A stretch of DNA of 64,000 bases. Source: Phycisphaera sp. (GTDB lineage: Bacteria > Planctomycetota > Phycisphaerae > Phycisphaerales > Zrk34). The notes beneath the pieces were generated by a model that worked only from the letters and a program-made list of their open reading frames with translations, did no database searches and had not been told where the DNA came from. Where the stretch lies: NCBI GenBank assembly GCA_016125285.1, contig WGMA01000006.1:62001-126000 (forward strand), read 5' to 3'. How positions within the stretch are numbered: the stretch's first letter is position 1; each line of letters starts with the position of its first letter. Made by a program: the position numbers and the translations under genes. Shown here one piece after another: positions 16,638 through 57,578 of this stretch.

Positions 16638-18074
16638 TCACGCCGTCGCCCGCTGGATCGCGCGACGGTGATACAGGAACTCGAACAGGTTGCCTTCGTG
16701 CGGCTGGTCCCACTTCGCCACGCTCGTGGGCATCGGCCCGAGGTTCAGCCGCTGGATCAGCGGGCTGCACAGCAGGTCCGTGATGAAGCCGGTGTCTTCG
16801 GTGATCGCGGTGACCACGAGCGACTGGCCGATCTTGTCGAGCATCTCGGCCTGCGGCATCTCGGTGACCGACACGAACGGGAACATGTACTCGCGGTTGG
16901 CCAGCGGGTGATCCCAGCTGTCGCAGCGGATGACGGTCGGCAGGGCGTAGGTGATGCCGGCGACCTCGGCGACGCGCGGGGCGCCGCCGCGCTTGGTCGA
17001 CGTCACGTCCTCGGCGCCGGGCGTGGTGAGTCCGTCGTCGATCTGCTCGGTGGCCCACGCCGCCATCGCGGGGTTCGCCATGCCGCTGAGCTGAGCGTTC
17101 TTGTCGTCGCGCGGCAGTGGCTTGATCTCCGCCAGCCGCTCGGCCAACGCCTCGGCGATCTCCCGCCCGTGTCGCGGCACGACGATCGACGACGCGTTGA
17201 TGCAGCTGCGACCGCTGTTCGCCGCGACCGATTTGACCAGCACGTCGAGGTAGTCCTTCCAGTTGTCGATCTTGTCCTCGCCGATGAGCACCTTCGACCA
17301 GCCGGGCCCGTGCACCTCGACACGCGGATTGCCCGCGTGCTTTTCGACGGTCGCCTGCCCGCCGAAGATGATCGAGCGGTCGCACACGTCGGTCACGGCG
17401 TTGGAGCCTTCGTGGTCGGTCGGGTAGAAGCCGAACGCCTCCGGCGGCGCGCCCGCGGCGATGAACGCCTGGATGACGCGGTAGGGAGTGAACGGCTCCT
17501 CGCTGCCGGGCTTGAGGATCACCGGGATCTTCAGCGCGATCGCCGGCATCCAGAGGCTGTTGACGCCCGGCGAGTTGCTCGGCAGCACCACGCCCAGCGA
17601 CTTGGTCGTCGGGAAGTAGCTGACGGGCACGCCGTCCTGCTCGCCGAACCCCGCGTCGAGCACCTTCAGGTCGATTCCGCGTGTCAGTCCCTTGAGGATG
17701 ATCGGCATCTCGACGAACACCTCGTGCACCTTCGCCATGTTGGCGCGGACGAGCGTGTGCGGCAGGCCGGACGTCTGCGACAGGTTGTCGATGTACTGGT
17801 CGGCGGTCTGCGTCGTGTCGCCGAACGGCAGCTCGGCCTTCATGAACAGCTCGCCGGCCTTGGCGCAGATGGCGAGCAGCTCGTCGGACGAGTAACCGCG
17901 GAGGATCTCACGCGCCTCGCCGAAGCGTTTGGCGTCACGCTTGATGACGCCGGCGTTGACGATCGACATCTCGACCAGCGGCTCGTCGCTGCCCAGCGGC
18001 GTGACGGCGCGCGTGTCGAGGCTGACGTAGGGCTTGCCGAGGCGGAGCGCCGGAATGTGTGGAAGCGGATTCAT
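16638..18074 (-). CDS. Aldehyde dehydrogenase superfamily protein, possibly acyl-CoA-reductase-like
   Basis: 478 residues. The catalytic Cys lies in AANSGRSCINASSIVVP and the substrate-access/NAD segment in LGVVLPSNSPGVNSLWMPAIALKIPVILKPGS. The sequence departs from standard aldehyde dehydrogenases (FGG where FTGS is usual) and looks closer to acyl-CoA reductases of the LuxC sort; this is a judgement by eye. Its ATG 18074 overlaps the stop of the four-helix-bundle gene as ATGA, and its upstream region, including any ribosome site, is made of heptamer repeats. It is followed by the iron alcohol dehydrogenase. Probable role: oxidation or reduction of an aldehyde made or used by the neighbours. 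Confidence 0.85.
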   Translation of the reverse strand: MNPLPHIPALRLGKPYVSLDTRAVTPLGSDEPLVEMSIVNAGVIKRDAKRFGEAREILRGYSSDELLAICAKAGELFMKAELPFGDTTQTADQYIDNLSQTSGLPHTLVRANMAKVHEVFVEMPIILKGLTRGIDLKVLDAGFGEQDGVPVSYFPTTKSLGVVLPSNSPGVNSLWMPAIALKIPVILKPGSEEPFTPYRVIQAFIAAGAPPEAFGFYPTDHEGSNAVTDVCDRSIIFGGQATVEKHAGNPRVEVHGPGWSKVLIGEDKIDNWKDYLDVLVKSVAANSGRSCINASSIVVPRHGREIAEALAERLAEIKPLPRDDKNAQLSGMANPAMAAWATEQIDDGLTTPGAEDVTSTKRGGAPRVAEVAGITYALPTVIRCDSWDHPLANREYMFPFVSVTEMPQAEMLDKIGQSLVVTAITEDTGFITDLLCSPLIQRLNLGPMPTSVAKWDQPHEGNLFEFLYHRRAIQRATA

Positions 18075-18484
18075 TTTCCATTTTCCATTGGCCGTTTTCC
18101 ATTTTCCATTGCGGAAACACGGCGGTTGGTTCTGACAGTCTTGACCGACGCGGTGATGATGCGGGCGAGTTGGGTCGCCTCGTCAAGCAGGTCATCAAGC
18201 TTCGAGGCCTTGACCAGGTTTGTTCTGCTAATCACACGCATCCAGATCACCGTTTCGTTGAGTTCCTTTTGGACAATTCCGAGCTTGTGCTTGAAGTCGG
18301 CGCGGCTCTCCGCGCCGCGGGCTTCTCCGTAGTTGGGTGCTGGAGAGGTGCCTGATCGCAGGATCTGGCTCGCGATGTGCCGCCCGGCGTTCGAGTCGGG
18401 CAGGTGATCTGCGAGCTTGATGATCCTCGCGGCGAATTCTTCCAGTCGGTTCTGTAGCTCATCGGCTTGCTGCTGATTCTCCAT
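18071..18484 (-). CDS. Four-helix-bundle protein (S23/IVP-like)
   Basis: 137 residues from ATG 18484 (MENQQQADEL), with GGGGGA upstream. The helical sequence with IASQILRSGTSPAPNYGEARGAESRADFKHKLGIVQKE is typical of the free-standing four-helix-bundle family related to proteins encoded in 23S rRNA intervening sequences and to Avd of diversity-generating retroelements. Function unknown. The last dozen residues are translated heptamer repeat. The gene is bracketed by inverted arrays of the same repeat family and interrupts the aldehyde dehydrogenase/AMP-ligase set, so it looks like an inserted unit. No reverse transcriptase or rRNA is nearby. Confidence 0.85.
   Translation of the reverse strand: MENQQQADELQNRLEEFAARIIKLADHLPDSNAGRHIASQILRSGTSPAPNYGEARGAESRADFKHKLGIVQKELNETVIWMRVISRTNLVKASKLDDLLDEATQLARIITASVKTVRTNRRVSAMENGKRPMENGK
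18072..18113. repeat. 7-base-period repeat array (GGAAAAT family), left arm
   Basis: On the minus strand the array reads GGAAAAT, GGAAAAC, GGCCAAT, GGAAAAT, GGAAAAT, GA. It encodes the last residues of the four-helix-bundle protein (a MENGK-type tail) and runs into the ATG of the aldehyde dehydrogenase gene. The inverted partner is at 18495-18537, on the other side of the small gene. A nearly identical array lies at 31549-31591. Confidence 0.85.
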
Positions 18485-18494
18485 CGCGTCCCCC

Positions 18495-18537
18495 GAAATG
18501 GAAAATGGCAAATGGAAATTGGAAAATGGAAAATCAA
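18495..18537. repeat. 7-base-period repeat array (GGAAAAT family), right arm
   Basis: On the plus strand: GAAAATG, GCAAATG, GAAATTG, GAAAATG, GAAAATC. It is the inverted counterpart of the array at 18072-18113. The stop codon of the AMP-ligase-like gene (TGA, 18534-18536) lies inside it. Confidence 0.85.
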
Positions 18538-19631
18538 TAAACCCCTTCCACGATGTTCTTCTTCTGCGCGCCGAACGGGCGCACGTCGCCCACGCCGTCC
18601 CAGGCGAACTGCTTACAGGGTCTACGCCGGATGACCTCGTCGCGTTCGAGGAATCGGGGCAGGAACAGCTCTTTCGTCAGCGTCGTCAGCTCGACGCGGC
18701 CCCACTCGTCGTAGTCCACGAGCTGGTCCGTCTGGTCAGGGTTGACCACACGCAGCACGGCACGCGGCTGGGGCGCGTAGTAGGTGATCGAGTAGTTGTC
18801 CTCGGGCGTCAGCGGCTTGTGCGCGGCCAGGCCCATCAGCGTGTTGCCGTAGGTCGGCACGAGCTTCGCCTTGTTCTCGAGCACCTCTTCGATGAGGAAG
18901 CGCACGTACTGCGGCGTCATCGTCGTGCCGCCGACGAAGCAGCCCTTGATGCCCGCGTTGGGGATGCTGACACGCTCGGCGAGCGCTTCAAGGAGCTTCG
19001 GCGTGGTGAACAGCGCGCTGATCTTGCGGTGCTTCATGATCATCACGGCCTGGTCGACGGCGTGCGTCATGTACGCCTTGGCCTGATCGAACTGCTGCGT
19101 GCCGATCAGCTTCTTGACCCAGCGCGGGTCGAGGTCGATGAACATGCAGGACGAGCCGCGGTAGTTGGCGAGGTGCTCGATGGCGAGGCGGAGTCGGCGG
19201 GGGCCGGTCGGGCCGACCATCAGCCAGTTGCCGCCGCGGGGGAACGCGTCGTCGTCGAGCGTGTCGGAGAACTGTTCGTAGTCGATCTTGTAGTCGTCCC
19301 ATCCGATGCGTTGCTTGGGCATGCCGGTGGTGCCGCCGGTCTCGAAGACGCAGTAGGGGCGTCCCTTGAAGGGCTGCGGGACCCAGCGTTCGGGCTGCTC
19401 GTAGCGGAGCCAGTCGTCCTGGAAGTGCGGGAAGAGCCGCGCGACGTCGGCGAAGCACGTGACGTCGGTCAGCGGATCGAAGTCCGCGTGCTTCTCTTTC
19501 CACTCCAGCCAGAACGGGCAGCCGGTGTCGTCGGAGAAGTGCCAGCGGACGATTTCGACGGCGTGCTCGTCGAGGCGCTGTGCGGCCTCGGCGATCGCCG
19601 ACTCCTGTGGGGCGGTTGCATTCGCGGTCAT
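18534..19631 (-). CDS. AMP-ligase-like protein (PaaK/LuxE-like adenylate-forming family)
   Basis: 365 residues from ATG 19631 (MTANATAPQES). It carries FETGGTTGMPKQR, the adenylate-forming P-loop, and PTYGNTLMGLA, the equivalent of the PaaK YGxTE region. The usual YRTGD is replaced by a GDVRPFG segment, and the protein is shorter than PaaK, more like LuxE-type acyl-protein synthetases. It probably activates a carboxylic acid. Downstream in the same direction are the four-helix-bundle gene, aldehyde dehydrogenase and alcohol dehydrogenase, so acid activation followed by reduction is plausible. The open frame continues upstream as antisense of the symporter gene; that part is not coding. Confidence 0.8.
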   Translation of the reverse strand: MTANATAPQESAIAEAAQRLDEHAVEIVRWHFSDDTGCPFWLEWKEKHADFDPLTDVTCFADVARLFPHFQDDWLRYEQPERWVPQPFKGRPYCVFETGGTTGMPKQRIGWDDYKIDYEQFSDTLDDDAFPRGGNWLMVGPTGPRRLRLAIEHLANYRGSSCMFIDLDPRWVKKLIGTQQFDQAKAYMTHAVDQAVMIMKHRKISALFTTPKLLEALAERVSIPNAGIKGCFVGGTTMTPQYVRFLIEEVLENKAKLVPTYGNTLMGLAAHKPLTPEDNYSITYYAPQPRAVLRVVNPDQTDQLVDYDEWGRVELTTLTKELFLPRFLERDEVIRRRPCKQFAWDGVGDVRPFGAQKKNIVEGVY

Positions 19632-26488: not shown

Positions 26489-26530
26489 CATTTTGCAATT
26501 TACATTTTTCATTTTGCAATTTGCATTTTC
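26489..26530. repeat. 7-base-period repeat array (AAAATGC family)
   Basis: On the minus strand AAAATGC, AAATTGC, AAAATGA, AAAATGT, AAATTGC, AAAATGG: six uninterrupted heptamers in the gap between the convergent MarR and cyclase genes. The last residues of the cyclase (EKMQIAK) and its stop are encoded by the array. Confidence 0.85.
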
Positions 26531-31478: not shown

Positions 31479-32003
31479 CTAAGGGGGCCGCGCGGAGGCG
31501 CAGAGGACCGAGCGGGTCACGCGGGAGGTGTGTGACGGGCGGGGGTGTTGGATTTTCCATTTTCCATTTGCCGTTTTCCATTTTCCATTGCCTCCGCGAC
31601 CCGCGGGGAGGGGGGAGGGGGGTGTCGGGTTGCGGGTTACCGGCGGCGCGTTGCGGGTTCGGCGCGGGGGGTGATCTCCAGTGGGCGCGGAGGTGTCATT
31701 TTCGAGTTCCGATTTTTCATTTTTGATTTGGGGCCGGGTGGCGGGGGATTGGTCGGGGTCGGGGCGTGTGGGGACGGCGCGCGCGGCATCGTCCGCGGCG
31801 TGGGCGGCGTCGGCGTTCGCTTCGGCGGCGCGGCGGTGGGCGACGACGCGGTCGTCTGAGCCGACCAGCGTGACGAGGTGCTCGGCGAGCGTGTCGATGT
31901 ACCCGTCCATCGCCCGCCGCGCCGGTCCGTCCTTGAGCCCCGCGCGGTGACGGCGCATGACCTCCAGGGCCTGCGTGACGTCTTTGAGACTGTGCAGCGG
32001 CAC
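31479..32003 (-). CDS. Small hypothetical protein with repeat-encoded C-terminal half
   Basis: 174 residues from GTG 32003, which has GGGGAG seven bases upstream and a near-consensus promoter further up. The first 80 residues (VPLHSLKDVTQALEVMRRHRAGLKD, then helical Ala/Asp-rich sequence) look like a real small helical protein. From about residue 90 on, the frame passes through two heptamer arrays, giving KNEKSELEND and NGKWKTANGKWK segments in low-complexity Pro/Arg sequence. It may be a true gene whose original stop was lost to repeat insertion. Function unknown. Confidence 0.45.
   Translation of the reverse strand: MPLHSLKDVTQALEVMRRHRAGLKDGPARRAMDGYIDTLAEHLVTLVGSDDRVVAHRRAAEANADAAHAADDAARAVPTRPDPDQSPATRPQIKNEKSELENDTSAPTGDHPPRRTRNAPPVTRNPTPPSPLPAGRGGNGKWKTANGKWKIQHPRPSHTSRVTRSVLCASARPP
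31549..31591. repeat. 7-base-period repeat array (GGAAAAT family), dispersed copy
   Basis: On the minus strand GGAAAAT, GGAAAAC, GGCAAAT, GGAAAAT, GGAAAAT: nearly identical to the array at 18072-18113, 13 kb away. It lies in the frame of the small hypothetical gene. Confidence 0.8.
31696..31731. repeat. 7-base-period repeat array (TCATTTT/CGATTTT family)
   Basis: Plus-strand units TCATTTT, CGAGTTC, CGATTTT, TCATTTT, TGATTTG. The unit is close to that of the pair at 11951-12063. No clear inverted partner within 100 bases. Confidence 0.7.
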
Positions 32004-35760: not shown

Positions 35761-35849
35761 AATGACCAATGACCAAGTCCCAATGCCCAATGACTGGGAA
35801 ATCCATCGGGCGTCTTGCATTGGTCATTGGTGCTTGGTCATTGGTCATT
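35761..35849. repeat. Hairpin of 7-base repeats (ATGACCA family), right of NIPSNAP gene
   Basis: The left arm begins AATGACC, AATGACC, AAGTCCC, AATGCCC; the right arm (35817-35849) is the inverted complement. It is almost the same element as 34819-34912 apart from the loop. It ends just upstream of the ferredoxin gene's stop at 35838 and overlaps its last codons (EANDQ). Confidence 0.9.
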
Positions 35850-39328: not shown

Positions 39329-39441
39329 CGATGCGGGATGCTGGATACTGGATGCTCGATGCTGGATGGGTATTGCCTTTTCGATGGCGACTTGTCCATC
39401 CGGCATCCAGCATCCAGCATCCCGCATCCGGCATCCGGCAT
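39329..39441. repeat. Hairpin of 7-base repeats (GATGCTG family), right of GcvH-like gene
   Basis: The left arm is GATGCGG, GATGCTG, GATACTG, GATGCTC, GATGCTG; the right arm (39395-39441) is CCATCCG, GCATCCA, GCATCCA, GCATCCC, GCATCCG, GCATCCG. Stem of about 40 bp. Same family as 38709-38796. Confidence 0.9.
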
Positions 39442-39449
39442 CGTCGACG

Positions 39450-56087: not shown

Positions 56088-57578
56088 CTACGCGATGATG
56101 TCGTAGATCACCTCGCCGGCCACGTCGGTCAGGCGGTAGTCGCGGCTGTTGTAGCGGTAGGTCAGACGCGTGTGGTCCAGCCCCAGCAGGTGCAGGATCG
56201 TCGCGTGGAAGTCGTTGACGTGGACCTTGTCCGTCGCGGCCTTGTGTCCGATCTCGTCGGACTCGCCGTGGCTGACGCCGCCCTTGACGCCGCCGCCGGC
56301 CATCCACGCGGTGAAGCAGTGCGGGTTGTGGTCGCGCCCGGGCTTCGCCGCCTTCTGCGCCAGCGGCAGCCGGCCGAACTCGCCGCCCCAGATCACCAGC
56401 GTCTCGTCCAGCAGGCCGCGCTGGTCGAGGTCGCTCAGCAGGCCGGCGATCGGCTGATCGGTCTCCTTCGCGAACCCGCCGTGGTTGCCGGCGATGTCGT
56501 TGTGGCCGTCCCACGAGCGCTGGTTCTCCATGCCGCCGGAGTAGATCTGCACGAAGCGCACGCCGCGCTCGACGAGGCGACGGGCCGTGAGACATTGCCG
56601 CGCGAAGTGGTCGCACTCCTTGACGCCGACGCCGTACAGGTCCTTGATCTGCTGCGGCTCGGTGTCGATCGCCAGCGCTTCGGGCGCCGCCGACTGCATG
56701 CGGTACGCCAGTTCGAACGACTCGATCCGCGCCGCGAACTCCGCTTCGGCGGGATGCTGCTCGAGCTGCATGTGGTTGAGGCGCTGCAGCAGGTCGAGCT
56801 GTCGGCGCTGCTGGTCGTGCGTCATCTCGGCGGGGCGGTCGAGGTTGTCGATCGGCACGCCCTGCGGGCGCAGGTGCGTGCCCTGGAACACGCTGGGCAG
56901 GAACCCGGCCGACCAGTTCGCCGCGTGCCCCTTCGGCAGGCCGCGCCCCTTCGGATCGCTCATCACCACGAAGCTCGGCAGGTCGTTCGACGCGCTGCCC
57001 AGGCCGTACGTCACCCACGACCCCACGCACGGCAGGCCCATCTTCGGCAGGCCGCAGTTCATCATGAACAGGGCGGGCGAGTGGTTGTTCGACTCGGTGT
57101 AGCCCGAGTGGATGAACGCCATCTTGTCGACGTGCTCGCCGAGGTTCGGGAAGATGTCGCTGACCATCTTGCCGCACTGTCCGCGCGGGCGGAAGTTGAA
57201 CGGCGACTTCATCAGCGCGCCGACCTGATCCTTGAAGAAGCCCGTCTCCTTGTCGAACCCCTGCAGGTCCTGGCCGTCACGCTTCACGAGTTCCGGCTTG
57301 TAATCCCACGTGTCGACGTGGCTGGGGCCGCCGTTGATGAACAGCCAGATCACGGACTTGGCCTTCGCGGGGAAGTGCGCCGGGCGCGGCGCCAGCGGGT
57401 TGTCGCGCAGGTGCGCCGGCGCGGCGAGCGCCGGCGCGAGCATGCCTTCCTCGGCGAGCATCGCGGCCAGCGCGGTCAGCCCGAACCCCGCGCCGGTCCG
57501 GCGGAGCCAGTCGCGACGGGTCCACAGCAAGTTCGGATTTCGGATTTCGGATTTCGGATTGAAAAGGTTGTCGTGCAT
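56088..57578 (-). CDS. DUF1501 protein (sulfatase-like fold) with repeat-encoded N-terminal insert
   Basis: 496 residues from ATG 57578, with CAGGAG nine bases upstream. The body is a typical DUF1501: FINGGPSHVDTWDYKPEL, FPNLGEHVDKMAFIHSG, WDGHNDIAGNHGGFAKETDQPI and VIWGGEFGRLP, giving the metal-binding Asp/His of the alkaline-phosphatase-like fold. A Tat-like leader TRRDWLRRTGAGFGLTALAAML starts only at residue 20; residues 7-16 (NPKSEIRNPN) are translated heptamer repeat. In planctomycetes these genes follow cytochrome-DUF1549/1553 genes, as here, and the pair is thought to act together on an unknown extracytoplasmic substrate. Confidence 0.93.
   Translation of the reverse strand: MHDNLFNPKSEIRNPNLLWTRRDWLRRTGAGFGLTALAAMLAEEGMLAPALAAPAHLRDNPLAPRPAHFPAKAKSVIWLFINGGPSHVDTWDYKPELVKRDGQDLQGFDKETGFFKDQVGALMKSPFNFRPRGQCGKMVSDIFPNLGEHVDKMAFIHSGYTESNNHSPALFMMNCGLPKMGLPCVGSWVTYGLGSASNDLPSFVVMSDPKGRGLPKGHAANWSAGFLPSVFQGTHLRPQGVPIDNLDRPAEMTHDQQRRQLDLLQRLNHMQLEQHPAEAEFAARIESFELAYRMQSAAPEALAIDTEPQQIKDLYGVGVKECDHFARQCLTARRLVERGVRFVQIYSGGMENQRSWDGHNDIAGNHGGFAKETDQPIAGLLSDLDQRGLLDETLVIWGGEFGRLPLAQKAAKPGRDHNPHCFTAWMAGGGVKGGVSHGESDEIGHKAATDKVHVNDFHATILHLLGLDHTRLTYRYNSRDYRLTDVAGEVIYDIIA

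Follow-up and report, generated by a model that had tools for sequence, protein, structure and literature searches.

Several described systems share single features with a unit that we found in a 64,000-nucleotide stretch of the planctomycete Phycisphaera sp. (assembly GCA_016125285.1, contig WGMA01000006.1, positions 62,001 to 126,000; hereafter the window), in which two inverted arrays of a 7-bp repeat enclose a single gene of the S23 four-helix-bundle family. Among these systems are the intervening sequences (IVSs) of 23S rRNA in Coxiella and Leptospira, whose S23/IVP open reading frame (ORF) belongs to the same protein family, lies in the loop of an inverted repeat and has a scattered distribution; in Coxiella, tandem GACAGAT heptamers stand upstream of the S23p ORF (PMC4990558). 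The units described here differ from IVSs in lying in operons of protein genes, on plasmids and at intergenic sites, in carrying arrays on both sides, and in having S23-less satellites. Arrays of the same kind, often G-rich and some of them inverted, are known as the short tandemly repeated repetitive (STRR) sequences of cyanobacteria and as the heptamer arrays of Xanthomonas and Nostoc, generally with no link to mobile elements (PMC4692102), whereas the arrays of this study are tied to S23 genes. REPIN-RAYT systems also combine dispersed short inverted repeats with one protein gene carrying the same repeats, but our protein is S23 and not a Y1 tyrosine transposase, and our units have tandem 7/8-mer ends that vary by lineage and likely target duplications. 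Miniature inverted-repeat transposable elements (MITEs) and insertion sequences share terminal inverted repeats, insertion polymorphism and probable short duplications; unlike them, the present unit has no transposase, no parent insertion sequence that we could recognise, and ends made of heptamer arrays. Finally, PF05635, the S23 family, has been likened to Avd (PMC10053308), a protein of diversity-generating retroelements (DGRs) with which it shares a fold, but the present unit encodes no reverse transcriptase (RT). We found no paper placing S23 genes between inverted heptamer arrays (preprints and most subscription papers were outside the search), and because tests of the known kinds failed as well, the S23-heptamer element is apparently an undescribed kind of mobile element.

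The whole unit of the window spans positions 18072-18534 and is built as follows.

18072..18110, plus strand: left array, ATTTTCC x5.6 (CATTTTC x5.6 in Tandem Repeats Finder), the downstream arm of the unit.
18496..18534, minus strand: right array, the same heptamer inverted (AAATGGA x5.6 in Tandem Repeats Finder), the upstream arm of the unit.
18071..18484, minus strand: S23/TIGR02436 four-helix-bundle gene, 137 amino acids from its ATG, identified by profile searches and an AlphaFold2 model.

The gene probably starts at the ATG at 18484 (a TTG at 18511 opens the longest ORF) and stops at 18071; it scores E=5e-17 with PF05635 and E=1e-25 with TIGR02436, above the curated cut-off, and its C-terminal residues (MENGKRPMENGK) are translated from the left array. 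With up to 3 mismatches, ATTTTCCATTTTCCA has 17 matches in the window versus 0.15 expected, the maximum in shuffled sequence being 3. Pfam and NCBIfam profiles detected S23 alone in the unit, and no transposase. An initial annotation had described an S23-like gene between arrays of one family in opposite orientation, and Tandem Repeats Finder, the shuffles and the profile searches all bear this out.

The arrangement recurs far beyond this genome. For 179 S23 loci, drawn from the family, the phylum and many phyla of GTDB, we compared the upstream 160 bp with the reverse complement of the downstream 160 bp, taking the 99th percentile of mismatched pairings as threshold. The threshold was exceeded at 129 of the 179 loci but by only 6/297 control ORFs in the same loci, so that such repeats are not scattered at random around unrelated genes, and by none of 332 flanks shifted by 300 or 600 bp; arms in direct orientation exceeded it at 20 loci. 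Arms had a period of 7 in 39% of S23 loci and of 8 in 14%, versus about 1%; among the 129 arm-positive loci, these periods were seen in 78 and 31, respectively. By eye, most of the 31 loci of the family show inverted heptamers. Some of the 179 loci are mutually orthologous, and the 80 GTDB loci, picked for their best scores and for a single conserved peptide pattern, are therefore no random sample of the S23 family. At two loci of one genome (L198 and L362 of G211) the arms have a 9-bp period besides the usual 7 and 8, and phage records gave no match to a classical S23 query. Slippage can expand tandem repeats, but the arrays are inverted, locus-specific and follow the gene, and chance was ruled out by the shuffles, mismatched pairings, displaced flanks and control ORFs; that chance or slippage made these repeats beside an ordinary gene is thus exceedingly improbable.

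Signs of movement come from cyanobacterial plasmids, where an S23 unit of ~400-450 bp is present or absent among similar to near-identical backgrounds. Flank identity between filled and empty sites is 98% in an operon of type IV secretion system (T4SS) type, 96.5% in a traM region, 92% at cas10-cmr3, 91% at an Aulosira site and 85% at nrdB-nrdA, and a Nostoc MOBF operon is also polymorphic. The two cleanest insertion events (flanks 93-98% identical) show the 5-bp direct repeats GTAAT and TTCTA. At the T4SS-type site the empty sequence AAAAAGTAATTAACAA is replaced by AAAAAGTAAT-unit-GTAATTAACAA, with GTAAT on both sides, and at the Nostoc MOBF site TTCTA flanks the unit on either side. These comparisons show the unit as a discrete insertion and suggest, in the two cleanest cases, a 5-bp target duplication. 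Presence and absence alone have no direction; insertion is favoured because of the flanking arms, the duplication at the cleanest site and the dispersal to unrelated sites. The initial annotation had proposed a cassette-like mobile unit without a transposase, and polymorphism, generality and dispersal largely support this, so that mobility of the S23-heptamer unit is, as judged from sequence, well supported.

Other states of these sites were seen as well. At the T4SS-type site, Nostoc C052 has a decayed copy of the unit and Brasilonema a compact inverted pair of the same repeat without S23, and at a cas6-cas4 site an S23-less relative has a different repeat in place of the unit. S23 units lie within cas operons at L283 (cas6-cas4) and L287 (cas10-cmr3), and in Anabaena sp. 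90 (L269, 2411-3064) the right array extends into the N-terminal coding region of Cas4, making Cas4 longer. At L280 (1542-2101) the S23 gene is interrupted by a stretch closed by a same-type heptamer array, and in Calothrix brevissima NIES-22 a gene of the phage integrase family has the same S23 unit as its neighbour on two plasmids (L265, L266).

In the window, the unit lies between two genes of a host operon.

16638..18074, minus strand: aldehyde dehydrogenase family gene, downstream of the unit, identified by profile search; it is an operon partner in unit-less relatives as well.
18534..19631, minus strand: AMP-binding ligase gene, upstream of the unit, identified by profile search and by the operon in relatives.

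The left array extends into the ATG of the aldehyde dehydrogenase gene (18074, minus strand), and the TGA of the ligase gene (18534-18536) touches the right array; both contacts, and the encoding of the S23 C-terminus by the left array, are as the initial annotation had stated. It had also called for relatives with and without the unit in this operon, and a search of the order with the AMP-ligase protein found both. An S23 unit with the same heptamer stands between the two genes only in this genome (G000) and in one family relative (G007), while in ~17 other relatives (loci L060-L078) the ligase stop and the dehydrogenase start are 2-160 bp apart with no S23. The S23 proteins of the two units are 68-72% identical, and the arms, compared by eye, are conserved at least as well as the S23 coding sequence. 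A single insertion in the ancestor of G000 and G007 is the most economical reading, and separate insertions in each may be the alternative. Of the target-site duplications that had been expected, 5-bp repeats were found in the two cleanest plasmid events, but at the window site itself a duplication is unreadable because the empty-site relatives are too diverged. At another place, the junction of two ketosynthase-like genes, S23 units occur in both G000 (L005) and G004 (L045), a repeated target; the two S23 proteins are of different subfamilies (33% identical) and have different repeats.

The unit of the window is not inside a 23S rRNA helix, its neighbours being the two enzyme genes. Its geometry nevertheless equals that of the 23S IVS, and one might suppose that the arrays make the transcript form a hairpin whose loop holds S23, serving mRNA processing or regulation, and that the unit spreads by ordinary recombination; the GACAGAT heptamers before the Coxiella ORF are in line with such a role. 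Yet units are antisense to both neighbours at L267 and L284, they occur in unrelated operons and as recent polymorphisms, and they have no Rfam match, and we consider this RNA role improbable.

The repeat and the protein travel together. Arms are shared by 45% of S23 pairs with at least 70% protein identity, some of these being orthologues with homologous flanks, versus about 0-1% of pairs below 50%, and shared arms are always on the same strand. Related S23 genes and repeats stand in unrelated flanks in five pairs of loci (L041/L044, L005/L052, L006/L048, L049/L053 and L086/L195); the units of the last pair, from one planctomycete genome (G210), share about 90% identity up to the arms and no further. 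Between S23 copies at unrelated sites, the ratio of nonsynonymous to synonymous substitution rates (dN/dS) is about 0.05-0.15, synonymous sites being almost saturated in some pairs, and the S23 protein is therefore kept by purifying selection.

The genome also carries many arrays without an S23 gene. An exact 15-mer of the window repeat occurs 26 times genome-wide, versus 0 for the reversed control, and 32 period-7 arrays were found in 864 kb. The genome has six S23 genes, all with inverted heptamers whose units differ among them. Of the 30 arrays not flanking the window S23 gene, 26 differ by one mismatch at most from the unit of a resident S23 gene (mean under the null 4.2, 0/2000), and so do 10 of 14 distinct array units (null 2.3); the six resident units were taken by eye from the arms, and the dispersal of one was known before the test. 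The two arms of an inverted pair are 0-54 bp apart, or 386 bp where S23 lies between them; in addition, one array has its partner at 89 bp, and another has a second partner at a distance of 534 bp. In 1.26 Mb, no gene other than S23 was seen between nearby inverted arms. S23-less sites in the window include the following.

31552..31589, plus strand: array with the unit of the window S23 gene, found by Tandem Repeats Finder, motif search and unit comparison.
26489..26529, plus strand: TTTTGCA-type array, unit as in the S23 gene on contig C22 (L005), by Tandem Repeats Finder and inspection.
39330..39442, no strand assigned: compact inverted pair GATGCTG / CATCC[AG]G with a 28-bp spacer and no gene, unit as in the S23 gene on contig C76 (L001), by Tandem Repeats Finder and unit comparison.
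57532..57560, plus strand: TTCGGAT array, unit as in the S23 gene on contig C36 (L004), by Tandem Repeats Finder and unit comparison.
35818..35849, plus strand: CATTGGT array, unit as in the S23 gene on contig C73 (L006), by Tandem Repeats Finder and inspection.

The first of these is the near-identical gene-less array that the initial annotation had placed at 31549. Since their repeats agree with those of S23 genes in the same genome, the arrays without a gene resemble non-autonomous satellites; this agreement, and the generality of inverted arrays across bacteria, go beyond that annotation. In a second genome (G211), 400 kb contained seven arrays, too small a number for the satellite test. 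Long G-rich or C-rich tracts adjoin S23-less arrays at L007, L017 and L025.

The explanation that we favour, and consider somewhat more probable than all others together, is a family of ~480-bp mobile elements with S23 as the sole protein and inverted arrays of a lineage-particular repeat (7 bp, sometimes 8 or 9). The unit would insert whole, mostly between genes and often within operons, probably with a target duplication of about 5 bp. S23, which is a homopentamer in a solved relative and has an Avd-like fold, would recognise the arrays of its own lineage, whether as DNA or as RNA, and deliver them to a nuclease, recombinase or polymerase of the host, which would do the chemistry. S23-less inverted pairs with the same repeat would be satellites mobilised in trans, much as RAYTs are thought to mobilise REPINs. 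We infer that S23 recognises the arrays and drives movement because the repeat tracks the protein, the protein is under selection and satellites exist.

S23 could instead be the cargo of a MITE whose arrays are recognised by a host Y1/HUH or DDE transposase, in which case the element would be a new form of something already described. The compact pairs are built like MITEs, 5-bp duplications are compatible with a DDE enzyme, and Y1_Tnp profiles match in 44/58 S23-bearing versus 30/61 other genomes (Fisher p=0.004). But no passenger other than S23 was seen between nearby arms in 1.26 Mb, S23 holds the same position in 129 loci across phyla, the repeat units vary by lineage but follow the S23 protein, dN/dS stays low across moves, and nine S23-bearing genomes have no Y1 or RT match, including the near-complete G014 with clear arms (the partner survey covered Y1_Tnp and the RT profile PF00078). 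We regard the cargo explanation as unlikely, if the most serious of the alternatives. A Y1 transposase as obligatory partner is unsupported, being absent from some S23 genomes though associated with them, and the window unit has no Y1 gene.

The AlphaFold2 model of the window protein (pLDDT 91) has its best fold matches in 2rld and in 2gsc, the latter being XCC0516 of Xanthomonas campestris, and then in Avd, both as the free protein (4dwl) and in complex with the DGR RT (8ub7), at TM-scores of 0.57-0.79 depending on the chain and length used and Foldseek E-values of 0.03-0.2. This match, the published likening of PF05635 to Avd (PMC10053308) and one RT match in G000 would agree with retro-mobility, in which the Avd-like S23 and an RT acting in trans copy a hairpin RNA of the unit. 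That RT lies on another contig than the unit, whose neighbours are enzyme genes, and 21 S23-bearing genomes have no PF00078 match, including G211 (97% complete), where 14 S23 genes each show some inverted-arm match. The RT association is weak (p=0.10), an RT as obligatory partner is unsupported, and retro-mobility appears to us a doubtful explanation.

Several observations count against an S23-driven element. S23 has no recognisable catalytic domain, and the Y1 association may point to a helper or to a rival mover. Detectable inverted arms are missing from about 28% of the S23 genes sampled, and multicopy subfamilies in G276, G212 and G201, genomes picked as multicopy, are entirely without them. 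The duplication is readable in two events only, the remaining sites being too diverged or altered beyond insertion, and the letters of TTCTA resemble the array. In the window unit the pyrimidine strand is upstream, the reverse of most units. The arm-less genes (L235-L264) have a conserved upstream hairpin, which seemingly encloses the ribosome-binding site, and are possibly autoregulated; L236-L238 have no Rfam match.

Heptamer arrays and S23 proteins have each long been known and unexplained, and their link gives a family annotated as "four helix bundle protein" a testable role. It also suggests where many heptamer repeats probably come from, may point to a mechanism of transposition without a standard transposase, and places the 23S rRNA intervening sequences within a wider family of selfish elements. 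More tentatively, with a chance that we put slightly below even, the units may form a pan-bacterial class of transposable elements, with satellites throughout the genome, that are mobilised by a four-helix protein which has no recognisable catalytic site and recognises its own lineage-specific heptamer arrays. If true, such a class would account for many G-rich heptamer arrays that are seen in cyanobacteria, xanthomonads and planctomycetes.
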